Shown here piece after piece: positions 28,751 to 37,805 of a DNA stretch of 64,000 nucleotides (the stretch's first letter is position 1; each line of letters opens with the position of its first letter). The DNA comes from Lentzea fradiae (GTDB taxonomy: Bacteria > Actinomycetota > Actinomycetes > Mycobacteriales > Pseudonocardiaceae). The notes beneath the pieces were generated by a model that worked only from the letters and a program-made list of their open reading frames with translations, had not been told where the DNA came from and did no database searches. The DNA lies in contig NZ_FNCC01000001.1 of the NCBI RefSeq assembly GCF_900100955.1, positions 248,001 to 312,000 on the forward strand, written 5' to 3'. The position numbers and the translations under genes are program-made.

Positions 28751-28936
28751 CACGCACCCGCTTCCCTCGGGAGAAGTCCCAGCGGGCCATGGTGGCACGG
28801 GAGCGGGCGGGGTTTCCCCGCCTCGGCACGAGCTTCATCAGGTCGGCCTACCGCGGACGCGACGTTTCGCGGAGCCGCTGCCGGAAGCGCGCGAAAACGG
28901 GAGACTCCCGGACAAGACCGTTTCGGGGGAGGCGTT

Positions 28937-29506
28937 GTGTCCGACGACCTGGGTGTGCTGACCGCGATCTACCAGTCCGATCGCACCGACCGTTCGACGA
29001 CGCTGACCGTCAGCCTCGCCACGATGGGCGCCGCCGTCACCTACCTCGTCGGCACGATCGCCTTCTACGACAAGCTGGACCTCCTCGGCTGGACGATCTG
29101 CCTGCTCCCCTTCCCGCTCGTCTGCGTCGCCGCCTTCCACGCGGTGCTGCTGAACCTCGCCGCTGTCCGGGCCCGGTCGATCCTCACTCTCGAACGGGTG
29201 CTTCTCGACCGGGTGCCGGAGGGCTCGCCGCCGGACCGCCGTGAGATCGGCGTGACCGCGAGTGAACGAGCGGGCAACCTGCACACCGCCCATCCGAGCC
29301 AGCGCGCGGCGATACTCATCGCCTATGGCGGAGTCGCGGCCACCTACCTCGGGTACGTCGTCCTGATGCTCGTCAAGGCGGCACGGCACATGTCCGGGTG
29401 GATCGCGGTCCCGGTCGTGGCCTACGTGGTGCTGCTGGTGCCGGTGGCACTCGCCTGGCGGCACAGCACGGCGAACTTCGACCTGGAGCCTGCCCGCACC
29501 CCCTGA
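28937..29506 (+). CDS. Four-TM membrane protein of the ATPase-patatin cassette
   Basis: A 189-residue protein from GTG 28937, preceded by GGGGGAGG. It has two pairs of TM helices (about 27-47, 55-78, then 128-148 and 155-174) separated by a soluble loop with SILTLERVLLDRVPEG and TASERAGNLHTAHP. The layout recalls SLATT-like or other small multi-TM effectors found in bacterial conflict systems, but I cannot assign it to a family. It lies 95 bp before the P-loop ATPase in the same direction and is divergent from bisC, so it probably belongs to the cassette. Confidence 0.68.
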   Translation: MSDDLGVLTAIYQSDRTDRSTTLTVSLATMGAAVTYLVGTIAFYDKLDLLGWTICLLPFPLVCVAAFHAVLLNLAAVRARSILTLERVLLDRVPEGSPPDRREIGVTASERAGNLHTAHPSQRAAILIAYGGVAATYLGYVVLMLVKAARHMSGWIAVPVVAYVVLLVPVALAWRHSTANFDLEPARTP

Positions 29507-29601
29507 CCCGCCTGGAATTGTTCACACGTTCGGGTGGTGCCATAGCGATTCCGCATCTGTGCGCCGGCTGCGTGCACTTGTGTCGGGTACGGGGAGGCAC
29601 C

Positions 29602-31206
29602 GTGAACGCACTGAACCGAATCCTCACCACCCGGGAACCGTTCGGGCCCGCGGACAGCGAGAGCGTCTTCGAAGCCGGCCTCGCGGGTGTGGACGAGTTG
29701 CTCGACCGTTCCAACCTGATCTACGCGCAGACCATCAGCGCGAGCCGCCCGACCTACATCATCGGCCGCAAGGGCGCGGGCAAGACCGCGTTCCTCTTCG
29801 GCTCCGCGATGAACAACAGCGTGCGAGCGTTGCGCACCGCCACCGTCTACCAGTGGATGGCGAGCGTGATCCGCTGCTGGACGGAGGTGCGCGGGCCGCT
29901 CTTCGTCGACCAGGCCGCCGACATCTGGGAGGCGGTGTTCGAGCAGGTCGCCCTGTTCCACGTGCACGACACCGCGCAGAGCGACGACCCGGTGAACGAG
30001 CTGCAGGACGTCTGGGACCACCTCGACCACCCCGAGCACACCGACGCGACCAAGATCACCGAGCGGTTCCTCGCCGAGCTGCAGCGCCGCATCGGCAACC
30101 GGGAGCTGATCGGGCTGAACGAGATCATCGGCGACGTCTCGCACGGTGGCGTCACGTTCGACCAGGCGCGCCGGGCGATGCGGGTCATCCTGCGGAAGCG
30201 GCAACAGCCGCTGGTGATCGTGATGGACAACCTGGAGGACCTGCACGCACGGCTGCCCGAGCTGCGGGACGTGCTGTCGGGCATGTTCCGGTGCGTGGGC
30301 AGGGTGATCCTCGGCAACGACGCGTTCGGCGTGCAGATCTGCCTGCCCAGCGAGCTCTTCGACCAGATCCACGAGATCTCGACCGCGCCGGAGAAGGACT
30401 TCCGGGGCAGCTACCTCACGATCTACTGGACGGCGAAGGAGCTGCTCCGGCTCGCGGACAACCGCCTGGGCCTCTACCTGCGCACGCACCACCCCGACGA
30501 GTACGAGGTGCTGCTGGCGAAAGCGGCGGGCAGGGAGGAGCCGCGCCTGCTCAGAGCCGCGCTGCCGCACCGCATGACCAGCGGGCTCGGCGCGGAGGAG
30601 GACCCGCTCGCCTACCTGCTCCGGCACACCCAGCTGCTGCCGCGCCACCTGATCGAGATCCTGAACAGCGTGTTCACCGCACCGGTGAACGGCTCGGTGC
30701 CGTGGGCCGTCACCGAGGAGGCGATCCGCGGCGGAACCCGGCGCGCGGAACGCATGGTGGTCAACGGGATCTTCGCCGCCCACCAGGCGTCGTACCCGCT
30801 GGCGCGCGAGGCGCTGGTCCGGCTGTCGGACCGGCTGGAGATCTGCTTCGCCGCCAGGGAGCTGCACCGCGTGTTCAACCGCGAGGGCATCCGCAAGGCC
30901 ACCGGGATGGAGTTCGGTGAGTTCCTGCCGATGCTGTTCACGCTGGGAGCACTGGGAGTGCGGTTCGACGAGACGGCGCGCTACAACAAGGCGCACTTCC
31001 AGTACACGTTCGACTCCAGCCTCACCGGCGAGGAGGACACCGACTACCTGTGCTTCCACCCCCTGTTCACCCGCTACCTGCACGAGCGGTCGTTGCCGAA
31101 GCTGCGCAGGAAGAACGCGAAAGCCACCTACCCGCACGGCTGCGACCCGGCGGACGAGGACTACCGGGTGTCCCTCGGGTACACCGCCGCGGCGGTGCGA
31201 GGCTGA
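29602..31206 (+). CDS. P-loop ATPase (Sll1717-family-like)
   Basis: A 534-residue protein starting at GTG 29602 behind GGGGAGG. The Walker A motif is GRKGAGKT at residues 55-62, and the Walker B-like VIVMDNLED lies at 205-213. The N-terminal context REPFGPADSES and TYIIGRKGAGKTAF resembles the P-loop family named after Sll1717, members of which occur in suspected defence loci; this match is from memory and needs a profile search. Residues 320-534 are helical, with winged-helix-like character. Its stop is one base before the patatin gene start, so the two are tightly coupled. It is probably the sensor or switch of the cassette. Confidence 0.75.
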   Translation: MNALNRILTTREPFGPADSESVFEAGLAGVDELLDRSNLIYAQTISASRPTYIIGRKGAGKTAFLFGSAMNNSVRALRTATVYQWMASVIRCWTEVRGPLFVDQAADIWEAVFEQVALFHVHDTAQSDDPVNELQDVWDHLDHPEHTDATKITERFLAELQRRIGNRELIGLNEIIGDVSHGGVTFDQARRAMRVILRKRQQPLVIVMDNLEDLHARLPELRDVLSGMFRCVGRVILGNDAFGVQICLPSELFDQIHEISTAPEKDFRGSYLTIYWTAKELLRLADNRLGLYLRTHHPDEYEVLLAKAAGREEPRLLRAALPHRMTSGLGAEEDPLAYLLRHTQLLPRHLIEILNSVFTAPVNGSVPWAVTEEAIRGGTRRAERMVVNGIFAAHQASYPLAREALVRLSDRLEICFAARELHRVFNREGIRKATGMEFGEFLPMLFTLGALGVRFDETARYNKAHFQYTFDSSLTGEEDTDYLCFHPLFTRYLHERSLPKLRRKNAKATYPHGCDPADEDYRVSLGYTAAAVRG

Positions 31207-31207
31207 C

Positions 31208-33352
31208 ATGGCGCTGGGCTACGGAGGACGCAGCCTGCCGAACGTGGGGGCCGAGTACGTCGAGGACCCGCCGGAGGGGATACGGATCGGGATCGCGTTG
31301 TCCGGCGGGGGAATCCGCTCCGCCGCGTTCAACCTCGGTGCGATGCAGGCGTTGCAGCACCGGCACGTCCTGGAGCGCGCCGACTACCTGACCGGCGTGT
31401 CGGGCGGCAACTACGTCGCGAGCGCGCTGACGATCACCGGCGCCTACAGCAATCCCGGCACCGACAACGGGAAACCCCACTGGGGCAGCGGTTCCGTCGA
31501 AGAACGCCACCTGCGCCAGCACACGAACTACCTGGCACCCGGCCGGGTCGGCAGGTTGTGGCTCGGGCTGAGCATGGTCTACGGGTTCATCCTGAACTAC
31601 CTGCCGTTCGTGCTGTGCGCGTTCATCGGCGGAAAGCTCGCGGGATGGGCGCTGAACTGGCTCGGCCAGCCACTGGAACGCCTGCGGCTCAACGGTCTCG
31701 ACCTGCCCGCGGCGCTCCCGCTGAAGGTGCTGCTGATCGGCGCGGCCGCACTGGCGGTCGTCGCCGTGCTGCTGGTGGCGTACCGCAGGTTCATCGACAT
31801 CCGCCGGTCTCCCCGCAACTACGGGGAGACGCGGTCCGAGGGCGTCGCCGCGAACCTGGTGCTGCTGGTGGGCGTGATCGCGGTGCTGCTGGTGCTGCCA
31901 CCGCTGGCGTCGCTGTACGGCAAGGTCTCCACCGCGATGATCTCCTGGCTCTTCCACGAGCCGCCGGAGGCGTTCGACACCACGCAGGGCCGCGTCGTGA
32001 TGGCCGCGGTGTGGCTGGTGCTGTCGCTGGTGCTGGCCATCGCCGCGCTCGCGCTGAGCCGCCGGTTCCGCGCCCTGCGCCTGATGCTGGTGCTGTCCGG
32101 GCTCGGCAGCGCCGGCCTGCTGCTCGTACCCCTCCTGTCGTCGCTGGAGTTCGCCGCACGGCTCGGCGTCCGCGGGACCGGCGACCTGCTCGGCGTGCTC
32201 GCCGCGACCGCCGTGGTCGTCCTGATGTCGATCAAGGTGCACAACCGCCGCTACTCGATGCACCTGTTCTACCGAGAACGGCTCAACAGCGTGTTCGCCC
32301 TGCGGCGCAAGCTGAACGAGGACGGCGACGTCGTGTGCGAGCCCATCGGGTACGACGAACGCCTCTACTTCTCCAAGATCGGGTCCAAGCTCCGCGCGAG
32401 CGGGCGCAAGATGCCCAAGCTGATCGTGTGCTGCGCGGTCAACCTCACGAGCGACGAGGTGCCGGTCGGCAGGTTCGCGGAGTCGTTCACCTTCGAGCAC
32501 GACCAGAGCGGTGGCGGCCTGTTCGGCCGTCGCGGCACCGACTGGTACGAGGAGCAGACCGGCCTGCCGGGCACGCAGCTCACCCTGCCGTCGATCATGG
32601 CCGTGTCCGGCGCCGCCCTGTCGCCGCTGATGGGCAGGTTCACCTACCCGCCGCTGCGCTTCCTGATGGCACTGACGAACGTGCGCCTCGGCGTCTGGAT
32701 CAAGAATCCCCTGCACCCGCGCTGGGAGCGCAAGCCGGAGCCGCCCCGAGGCCGGCTGGCCCGCCTGTGGGCGTCCGTCCTGGACGGCTGGCACGAGCCG
32801 GGAGCCCTCTACGTGCTGCGCGAAGCGCTGGGCGCCACCAAGTCCACCCACCGCTTCATCTACCTGACCGACGGCGGCCACTGGGAGAACACGGGTCTGG
32901 TGGAGCTGCTGCGCAGGCGCTGCACGCACGTCCTGTGCTTCGACGCGAGCAGCGACCCCACCGGAGCCGGCCTGGACATCGGCCGTGCCATCGCGCTGGC
33001 GCGCAGCGAGCTCGGCGCGGACGTCGAGCTCGACCCGCGCCCGACGATGCCGGGGGAGGACGGCATGAGCGAGCTGATGGCCGTGCGAGGCCAGGTGAGG
33101 TATCCGGACCAGGGCGGCGAGGCCAAGCTGATCTACGGCAAGGCGGTGCTCACCCGGTCCGGCAGCTGGGACCTGCACGCGTTCAAGGCGCGCGAAGGCC
33201 GGTTCCCCAACCACTCGACCAGCAAGCAGATGTTCACCGACGAGCAGTTCGAGGCGTACCGGCGTCTCGGCTACGAGGCGGGGACGCAGGCGGTGGACCT
33301 GCTGAACATCCCGGACGCCTTGCTGAGCCCGGTGCGCATCGTGCTCAGCTGA
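31208..33352 (+). CDS. Membrane-embedded patatin-like phospholipase
   Basis: A 714-residue protein. The patatin oxyanion loop SGGGIRSAAF lies at 32-41 and the nucleophile elbow GVSGG gives Ser65. The catalytic Asp is Asp555 in TDGGHWENTG. Between Ser65 and Asp555 lies an insertion with about six TM helices (roughly residues 115-345), so the catalytic domain is split around a membrane block; ordinary bacterial patatins are 280-400 residues and soluble. It should hydrolyse acyl chains of membrane lipids at the inner face. With the coupled ATPase and a 4-TM protein it forms a possible membrane-targeting effector system. Start ATG at 31208. Confidence 0.85.
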   Translation: MALGYGGRSLPNVGAEYVEDPPEGIRIGIALSGGGIRSAAFNLGAMQALQHRHVLERADYLTGVSGGNYVASALTITGAYSNPGTDNGKPHWGSGSVEERHLRQHTNYLAPGRVGRLWLGLSMVYGFILNYLPFVLCAFIGGKLAGWALNWLGQPLERLRLNGLDLPAALPLKVLLIGAAALAVVAVLLVAYRRFIDIRRSPRNYGETRSEGVAANLVLLVGVIAVLLVLPPLASLYGKVSTAMISWLFHEPPEAFDTTQGRVVMAAVWLVLSLVLAIAALALSRRFRALRLMLVLSGLGSAGLLLVPLLSSLEFAARLGVRGTGDLLGVLAATAVVVLMSIKVHNRRYSMHLFYRERLNSVFALRRKLNEDGDVVCEPIGYDERLYFSKIGSKLRASGRKMPKLIVCCAVNLTSDEVPVGRFAESFTFEHDQSGGGLFGRRGTDWYEEQTGLPGTQLTLPSIMAVSGAALSPLMGRFTYPPLRFLMALTNVRLGVWIKNPLHPRWERKPEPPRGRLARLWASVLDGWHEPGALYVLREALGATKSTHRFIYLTDGGHWENTGLVELLRRRCTHVLCFDASSDPTGAGLDIGRAIALARSELGADVELDPRPTMPGEDGMSELMAVRGQVRYPDQGGEAKLIYGKAVLTRSGSWDLHAFKAREGRFPNHSTSKQMFTDEQFEAYRRLGYEAGTQAVDLLNIPDALLSPVRIVLS

Positions 33353-36276: not shown

Positions 36277-36368
36277 GCGTCCTTTGTGGACTTACCGGGT
36301 CATGGTGGGGCCGTTGGGCGTCGAGACGAAACGAGACGCTATGGGGTCTGACCAGTCAAAACATGCCG

Positions 36369-36408
36369 ATGGGGCCGTCTTCGGGAGATGTCCCGAAAAT
36401 GGCCCCAT
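36369..36408 (-). terminator. Terminator of kamA
   Basis: A compound hairpin: TGGGGCC (36370-36376) pairs with GGCCCCA (36401-36407), and the inner TTCGGGA (36380-36386) pairs with TCCCGAA (36391-36397), with a GATG loop and 3-base internal bulges. On the minus strand it is followed within about a dozen bases by TTTT. It lies 9 bp after the kamA stop codon. Confidence 0.75.
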
Positions 36409-36416
36409 TGTGGCCG

Positions 36417-37805
36417 TCAGCTCTGGCCGGCCCACCACTTCTGGCCGGTCTCGCCGAGGGTGGAGATCGGGTCGTAGTAGGGGTAGCGGCGGTTCAACGC
36501 CTCCGGGTCCTCCAGTTCGATCCCGGTCCGGTAGTTCTTCGTCCAGTACGAGATCCCCAGCTCGCGGTCGTATTCCTCGAGCTGGTGCACCCACCGCTTT
36601 CCGACGTACGGCACGTCGCACACGATCCGCGGCGTCGCGTAGCCGGGCAGGTAGCCCATGATCGCGTGCTGGAGCTCCTGCGCCTCCCACACCGACACCC
36701 GCCAGTGCTCGGCGTTGGGGATCATGTCGCACATGTAGAAGTAGTACGGCAGGATGTTCGCTTCCCCTTGCAGGGCGAAGCAAAGGTCCAGCAGGTCGTC
36801 CGGCGTCGCGTTGACGCCCTTCATCAGCACGCCCTGGTTGCGCACGTCGCGGACGCCGACCTCCAGTGCCGTGCGCGCGGCCTCGGCGACCAGTGGTGTC
36901 ACGGACTGCGCGTGGTTGACGTGGGTGTGGATCGCCAGGTTCACGCCGCGGCGCGAGGCGGTGCGGGCGACTCGTTCGAGGCCCTCGACCACGCGCGGCT
37001 GGAGCCAGTGCTGGGGGAGGCCCGCCAGCGCCTTGGTGGCCAGGCGCACGTCGCGGACCGTGTCGATGTCGAGCACCCGCATCAGGAACGACTCGAGCTG
37101 CGGCCACGGCACGTTCGCCACGTCGCCGCCGGAGACGACCACGTCGCGCACGCCGGGGGTCTTCTTCAGGTACTCGATCATCTGGTCCTGGCGGTCGACC
37201 GGCTTGAGCGACAGCTTGTGCTTGTCGATCAGCGGCGTGGAGTTGCCGACCAGGTCCATGCGGGTGCAGTGGCCGCAGTACTGCGGGCAGGTCGACACCA
37301 TCTCGGCGAGGACCTTGGTGGGGTAGCGGTGCGTGAGGCCCTCGACGACCCACATCTCCGCCTCGTGCAGCGAGTCGCGCTGCGAGTGCGGGTGGGACGG
37401 CCAGCGCGGGTCGCGGTCGGAGCGGACCGGCAGCATGTAGCGGCGCACCGGGTCGGCGAGGAAGGCGTCGGTGAACTCCGCGGGGGACAGCGGCGCGTCG
37501 ACCGCCATCGTGTTGAGCATCTGCGGCGGGAGCAGCATCGACATCGTCGCGAAGTTCTCCTGGTCCGCGGCCAGGTCGTCGTAGAACTTCTCGGTCAGCA
37601 GGTCGCCCGCCACCTTGCGGAGCTGCTTGACGTTCTTGACGCAGTTCACCCGCTGCCACTGGGCGTCACGCCACTGCGCGTCGGTCACGTGGGCCCATCC
37701 GGGGAAGCGCCGCCAGTCGGGTTCGACCAGCTCACGCCGGACGTACGTGTACGGCTGGCGGTCCAGCCGCTCCAGCGCCGTGGGGGCGTCGTGCAGCGCG
37801 GTCAT
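36417..37805 (-). CDS. kamA: Lysine 2,3-aminomutase (radical SAM)
   Basis: A 462-residue radical SAM/PLP enzyme that converts L-lysine to beta-lysine. The cluster-binding motif is CPQYCGHC, giving Cys173, Cys177 and Cys180, and the surrounding STCPQYCGHCTRMDLVG is typical of KamA. The C-terminal half includes GYLPGYATPRIVCDVPYVGKRW (in parts), near the PLP region. The assignment to lysine rather than glutamate rests on the kdd-kamD-kamE-kal operon 4.2 kb away. A 14-bp motif 25-38 bp upstream of its ATG is repeated upstream of kdd. A terminator follows the stop. Confidence 0.92.
   Translation of the reverse strand: MTALHDAPTALERLDRQPYTYVRRELVEPDWRRFPGWAHVTDAQWRDAQWQRVNCVKNVKQLRKVAGDLLTEKFYDDLAADQENFATMSMLLPPQMLNTMAVDAPLSPAEFTDAFLADPVRRYMLPVRSDRDPRWPSHPHSQRDSLHEAEMWVVEGLTHRYPTKVLAEMVSTCPQYCGHCTRMDLVGNSTPLIDKHKLSLKPVDRQDQMIEYLKKTPGVRDVVVSGGDVANVPWPQLESFLMRVLDIDTVRDVRLATKALAGLPQHWLQPRVVEGLERVARTASRRGVNLAIHTHVNHAQSVTPLVAEAARTALEVGVRDVRNQGVLMKGVNATPDDLLDLCFALQGEANILPYYFYMCDMIPNAEHWRVSVWEAQELQHAIMGYLPGYATPRIVCDVPYVGKRWVHQLEEYDRELGISYWTKNYRTGIELEDPEALNRRYPYYDPISTLGETGQKWWAGQS

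Follow-up and report, generated by a model that had tools for sequence, protein, structure and literature searches.

An Sll1717-type ATPase and a predicted membrane-embedded phospholipase form a two-gene unit in Lentzea fradiae and scattered relatives, with a possible role in biological conflict

In PLP-1, a fungal NOD-like receptor (NLR) that combines an NB-ARC module with a patatin, cell death is reported to require both the patatin activity and the NB-ARC ATP-binding motif (PMC12881547). Patatins are also the effectors CapV and CapE of the cyclic oligonucleotide-based anti-phage signalling system (CBASS). The human cytosolic phospholipase A2 (cPLA2, group IV, 1cjy) is docked on membranes by its C2 domain. 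Here, we analysed a window of 64,000 nucleotides from the actinomycete Lentzea fradiae (contig NZ_FNCC01000001.1, positions 248,001 to 312,000), in which the gene of an Sll1717-type ATPase (g2) is followed by that of a cPLA2/patatin-type phospholipase (g3) and preceded by that of a small membrane protein (g1). The ATPase and the patatin are one unit, since the same 10 of 297 Pseudonocardiaceae genomes carry both genes, which adjoin in all 10. On balance, we lean towards a two-protein switch-effector unit, in which the ATPase would control a phospholipase already embedded in the membrane and which would act in conflict or abortive infection. The features of the locus are as follows.

28926..33352, + strand: block common to the Lentzea genomes G123 and G272 (DNA comparison)
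28937..29506, + strand: g1, accessory; four-transmembrane (TM) membrane protein, 189 amino acids, GTG start, no named family
29602..31206, + strand: g2, core; P-loop ATPase of the Sll1717 family (NF047389), 534 amino acids, GTG start
31208..33352, + strand: g3, core; cPLA2/patatin-type phospholipase, predicted to be membrane-embedded, 714 amino acids, ATG start, Ser65 and Asp555
31574..32242, + strand: six hydrophobic segments of g3 (residues 123-345), between Ser65 and Asp555 (hydropathy scan)

A preliminary description, made from the letters alone, had reported three genes on one strand, the last two a single base apart, and we reproduced its coordinates, sizes and motifs. That base separates the g2 stop from the g3 start; g2 has a Walker A motif, GRKGAGKT, at residues 55-62 and DNLED at residue 209, and g3 shows the patatin/cPLA2 set of GGGxR, Ser in xxSGG and Asp in DGG, as GGGIR at 33, GVSGG at 63 (nucleophile Ser65) and DGG at 555 (Asp555). 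Four hydrophobic segments were found in g1 by hydropathy scan (residues 25-43, 54-72, 126-144 and 155-173). Under a codon model with the window as its training set, g1, g2 and g3 scored 70.5, 262.6 and 300.4, respectively, and these good scores, together with the co-conservation of g2 and g3 in the 10 genomes, indicate that the three are more than chance open reading frames (ORFs). A promoter scan of the locus found no sigma-70-like promoter, and a terminator scan gave two terminator-like sites, both on the minus strand and with no excess over shuffled sequences.

The same description had suggested an Sll1717-type ATPase for g2, which agrees with its match to NCBIfam NF047389 (171.3 bits against a cut-off of 75). 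The structure model of g2 (predicted local distance difference test score 90.7) has as its top fold matches, in rankings from VIA-align, the archaeal ATPases 2qen/2fna and Cdc6/ORC, and the protein may be a STAND/ORC-like AAA+ NTPase; no solved structure of a g2 relative was found via sequence. For g3, the Pfam family PLA2_B matched slightly above its cut-off and Patatin slightly below. The protein models as a cPLA2-type phospholipase in which the Ser65 and Asp555 halves flank the six TM segments, so that family matches, hydropathy and model bear out the earlier idea of a patatin split by a membrane block; g3 has this membrane insert in lieu of the C2 domain of cPLA2. Six TM segments were counted in 33 of 34 paired patatins, from the glycine-rich motif (not the Ser elbow) to DGG, P0099 being without the motif. 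Stretches rich in Arg and Lys follow segments 2, 4 and 6 of g3, and thus both catalytic halves probably lie on the cytoplasmic side, a topology that fits the sequence.

We identified matches to g3 in 52 of the 297 Pseudonocardiaceae genomes: close relatives (58-100% identity) in 10, relatives of 33-40% identity in 31, short remnants in two (G230 and G007) and short weak matches in nine. The g2 search matched 11 genomes, namely the same 10 and a weak one in G198. Within Lentzea, the pair is found in 5 of 24 genomes. Among the 10 family genomes, interrupted copies occur in G272 (patatin) and in G258 (both ATPase and patatin). Outside this family, the pair is present in 3 of 112 Geodermatophilaceae genomes, each time near the same argC-like gene and once with an extra gene between. 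(Genes at comparison loci were called with a custom script, and the names argC, pheT, SDR and those of the EF-Tu-side genes were read from the sequences unless a Pfam match is cited.) When the patatin search was made wider, over named genomes, and 80 of 575 loci were kept, the ATPase lay next door at four: those of Umezawaea endophytica, Lentzea indica, Geodermatophilus poikilotrophus and a gammaproteobacterial metagenome-assembled genome (MAG) of the Granulosicoccaceae, the first two pairs apparently being already among the 10 family genomes (G089, G156). Counting the source genome, 11 of 396 actinobacterial genomes have a match to the Sll1717 family above its cut-off, and the ATPase profile, run against 396 genomes of the phylum, matched the source genome and gave four weak matches.

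This distribution bears on a housekeeping explanation, namely that a chaperone-like ATPase regulates a phospholipase of envelope maintenance, for lipid remodelling or repair under stress and without any conflict role. Patatins with internal TM segments are indeed common without this ATPase, both as the relatives of 33-40% identity and at 76 of the 80 kept loci (some of them on short contigs), and the fixed gene near the Geodermatophilaceae pairs would suit such a function. However, we consider it rather unlikely, given the presence of the pair in so few Lentzea and family genomes, the interrupted copies and remnants, and the association of related ATPases with TIR and FRG domains described below.

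We found that the two genes of the unit have been inherited together. In a FastTree tree of 34 paired and 65 unpaired patatins, flagged for long branches and uneven composition, all of the paired sequences fall on one side of a single branch with support of 100, and a smaller maximum-likelihood tree (13 paired and 20 unpaired rows) gave the same split with an SH-aLRT of 99. ATPase and patatin distances correlate at 0.955 over the 34 pairs and at 0.88 over the 31 closer ones, and none of 5000 permutations reached as high a value. Among the matches listed, 37 of 120 patatins appear to share a contig with a listed ATPase, where about one would be expected; 24 of the 34 pairs used for the trees and distances were selected from these 37, and so are inferred from match listings and not read from DNA. 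Some paired rows are near-identical (P0051 and L117), the unpaired rows comprise 56 of the 76 unpaired loci of the wider search (those with a called patatin gene of at least 640 amino acids) and 9 of the 31 family genomes, and the trees leave out the interrupted copies of G272 and G258. At the level of sequence, the matching distances show co-inheritance, and are not evidence of interaction. That the two genes are chance neighbours with unrelated roles is scarcely credible in view of their co-occurrence, their adjacency, the single paired group in the trees and these distances.

The block that contains the pair is 89% identical in DNA to its counterpart in G123, and 87% and 91% identical, in two pieces, to that in G272. 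In window positions, homology to both genomes sets in shortly before g1, at 28926 for G123 and 28877 for G272, and its end coincides exactly with the stop codon of the patatin gene (33352); the neighbours of the block differ among Lentzea genomes, indicating that it moves as a unit.

Unlike the pair, g1 seems to be a membrane part that is reused in different settings rather than a constant third component, since it lies beside the pair in only 3 of the 10 pair-bearing family genomes, all three Lentzea, and is present elsewhere. Thus, the expectation that all three genes would be neighbours in other genomes held for ATPase and patatin, adjacent in 10 of 10, and failed for the three-gene cassette, and we rejected a strict three-gene unit. 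The suggestion that g1 is a SLATT protein also fell: it has no Pfam or NCBIfam family above cut-off and no SLATT profile match, with UNC-50 at E 0.12 as the sole Pfam match at E ≤ 1. Twelve strong g1 loci were identified in the Pseudonocardiaceae sample, three beside the pair and nine elsewhere, and 14 more matches are fragmentary or weak. Six of these nine adjoin a module of an LCAT-type lipase and an NTPase, with LCAT over cut-off in all six: in L167, L168 and L171 the lipase is accompanied by VMAP-M2 and AAA genes (the L171 AAA gene lying outside the profile scan), in L165 and L164 by large NTPase genes matching nSTAND_NTPase5 (over the cut-off in L165, slightly under it in L164), and in L163 by an AAA-TPR protein that matches a caspase family far under the cut-off. 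At the other three loci (L166, L169 and L170) no lipase and NTPase neighbour was seen. The L172 protein joins a distant g1-like domain to the ATPase domain of a histidine kinase; by inspection, L176 resembles L172, and L175 has a g1-like gene after a kinase-like gene.

It is also conceivable, as an addition to the switch-effector reading, that g1 is a true third component, a sensor or immunity protein, needed by the Lentzea version. The block 28926-33352 is common to three Lentzea genomes despite their different neighbours, and both the lipase and NTPase genes beside six of the nine other g1 loci and the L172 fusion would accord with this. We nonetheless find it doubtful, as seven of the 10 family genomes lack g1 next to the pair, G156 and G206 among these seven having it elsewhere, and no g1 was seen next to the pair in Geodermatophilaceae or in the MAG.

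Relatives of the ATPase have other partners. Four listed g2 relatives (47-49% identity) bear TIR_2, confirmed in both of the two that were scanned, and an FRG-domain gene directly follows an Sll1717-type ATPase in two distant members from actinobacterial genomes, L234 (7265-9620) and L271 (4839-7191). No patatin was found beside distant Sll1717 members, either by profile at seven loci or by eye at six more (L232 being in both sets). These exchangeable outputs, patatin, TIR and FRG, suggest that the Sll1717-type ATPase may be a switch. The ATPase and FRG pair is perhaps another two-gene unit.

Comparison with described systems places PLP-1 nearest, by analogy, as a worked example of the mechanism that we propose, both having an NTPase switch and a patatin effector. 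In contrast to PLP-1, which is one fused protein with TPR repeats, the present unit has two proteins, another AAA+ type and a TM-embedded lipase. It differs from CBASS in that the partner is an ATPase and that six TM segments lie within the catalytic domain; CBASS itself was rejected, as the PADLOC matches of 103 genes near 10 pair loci (22 of these genes from the window) cover 22 families, none of them a CD-NTase. In comparison with Avs and other bacterial STAND systems, g2 is without a large sensor repeat region, and the effector is a membrane protein of its own. The likeness to the vWA-MoxR-VMAP conflict systems concerns the g1 relatives that adjoin LCAT-type hydrolase, VMAP-M2 and AAA genes. 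Kaur et al. 2020 (PMC7159879) report that an alpha/beta-hydrolase gene always neighbours VMAP caspases, and the word 'patatin' is absent from their paper. No vWA, MoxR or VMAP genes were recognised by the pair in the neighbour gene lists, most neighbours being outside the Pfam scan.

We propose that g3 would be anchored in advance in the cytoplasmic membrane by the six TM helices inside its catalytic domain, where the Sll1717 ATPase would hold or trigger it. Infection or some other assault inside the cell is the most likely trigger, upon which the ATPase may switch its nucleotide state or oligomerise and so activate the lipase, which would cleave membrane phospholipids and stop or kill the cell; in some Lentzea the four-TM g1 is added, perhaps as a membrane sensor, tether or protection. 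A conflict role is favoured by the patchy and decayed copies, by the TIR-fused and FRG-paired relatives of the ATPase and by the tie of g1 to lipase and NTPase modules. Against it, nothing in the window was recognised as a defence island, the sole PADLOC match for the three proteins was one of g1 at E 0.34, with none for g2 and g3, and searches of plasmid and phage records did not turn up the ATPase.

That no plasmid copy of the ATPase was found also counts against an addiction pair, in which the lipase would be a constitutive toxin restrained by the ATPase or by g1, without any sensing of infection. The one-base gap between g2 and g3, the sporadic distribution and the conserved catalytic motifs of the lipase would all suit a toxin-antitoxin arrangement. 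We judge it improbable, however, since a length of 534 amino acids and conserved Walker motifs would be atypical of an antitoxin on general grounds, and the TIR-fused relatives seem to resemble activators more than antitoxins. Elsewhere in these searches, no g1 was found on plasmids, patatin matches on plasmids were distant ones only, in 40 plasmid records, and viral contigs gave one weak ATPase relative and one weak patatin relative.

More tentatively, the switch-effector unit might be an NLR-like bacterial immune switch of two proteins, with a killer cPLA2-type lipase that sits permanently in the membrane, and would therefore need no recruitment for activation. The four-TM accessory would then be exchangeable and shared with unrelated LCAT and STAND/VMAP conflict modules, and the Sll1717 ATPase would act as an all-purpose immune switch whose output is patatin, TIR or FRG. 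We found no published description of the ATPase-patatin pair in the literature on patatin defence, conflict systems and actinomycete defence, most subscription papers being outside the search, and no paper with the word Sll1717 in the literature searched. If the proposal is true, it would provide a function for the unstudied Sll1717 ATPases, add an integral-membrane cPLA2 relative to the bacterial suicide enzymes, and supply a bacterial counterpart of fungal NLR-patatin cell death. The recurrence of g1 beside different lipase modules makes it a candidate shared sensor or immunity part.

We additionally noted several features around individual copies. A full EF-Tu-like gene (L169:8647-9828) adjoins the lone g1 relative of G277. 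Immediately upstream of the interrupted ATPase of G258 is a TMEM175-type potassium-channel gene (L118:6835-7416), and in G100 a PDC-S37/Hhe-like helicase of 1852 amino acids (L117:13451-19009) lies upstream of the pair on the same strand, with a 118-amino-acid ORF between. In the gammaproteobacterial MAG, a tRNA-Val (L034:4523-4599) lies 27 bases past the patatin stop and is a possible insertion site.

In Lentzea, a KamA-like radical SAM gene (36417-37805, - strand) is an apparent site of integration. Six fragments that carry part of the kamA 3' end (window 36279-36736) were compared, and all of them break off at one point, 36732-36736; other fragments, e.g. L204, end elsewhere. Two fragments (L203 and L205, 91% identical) have a tyrosine recombinase gene no more than about 160 bases away. 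The trio is 3 kb from kamA in the window and about 35 kb from it in G123, with fragments between; in G272 it is not near kamA. The patatin remnant of G007 lies about 60 bases from a kamA fragment.
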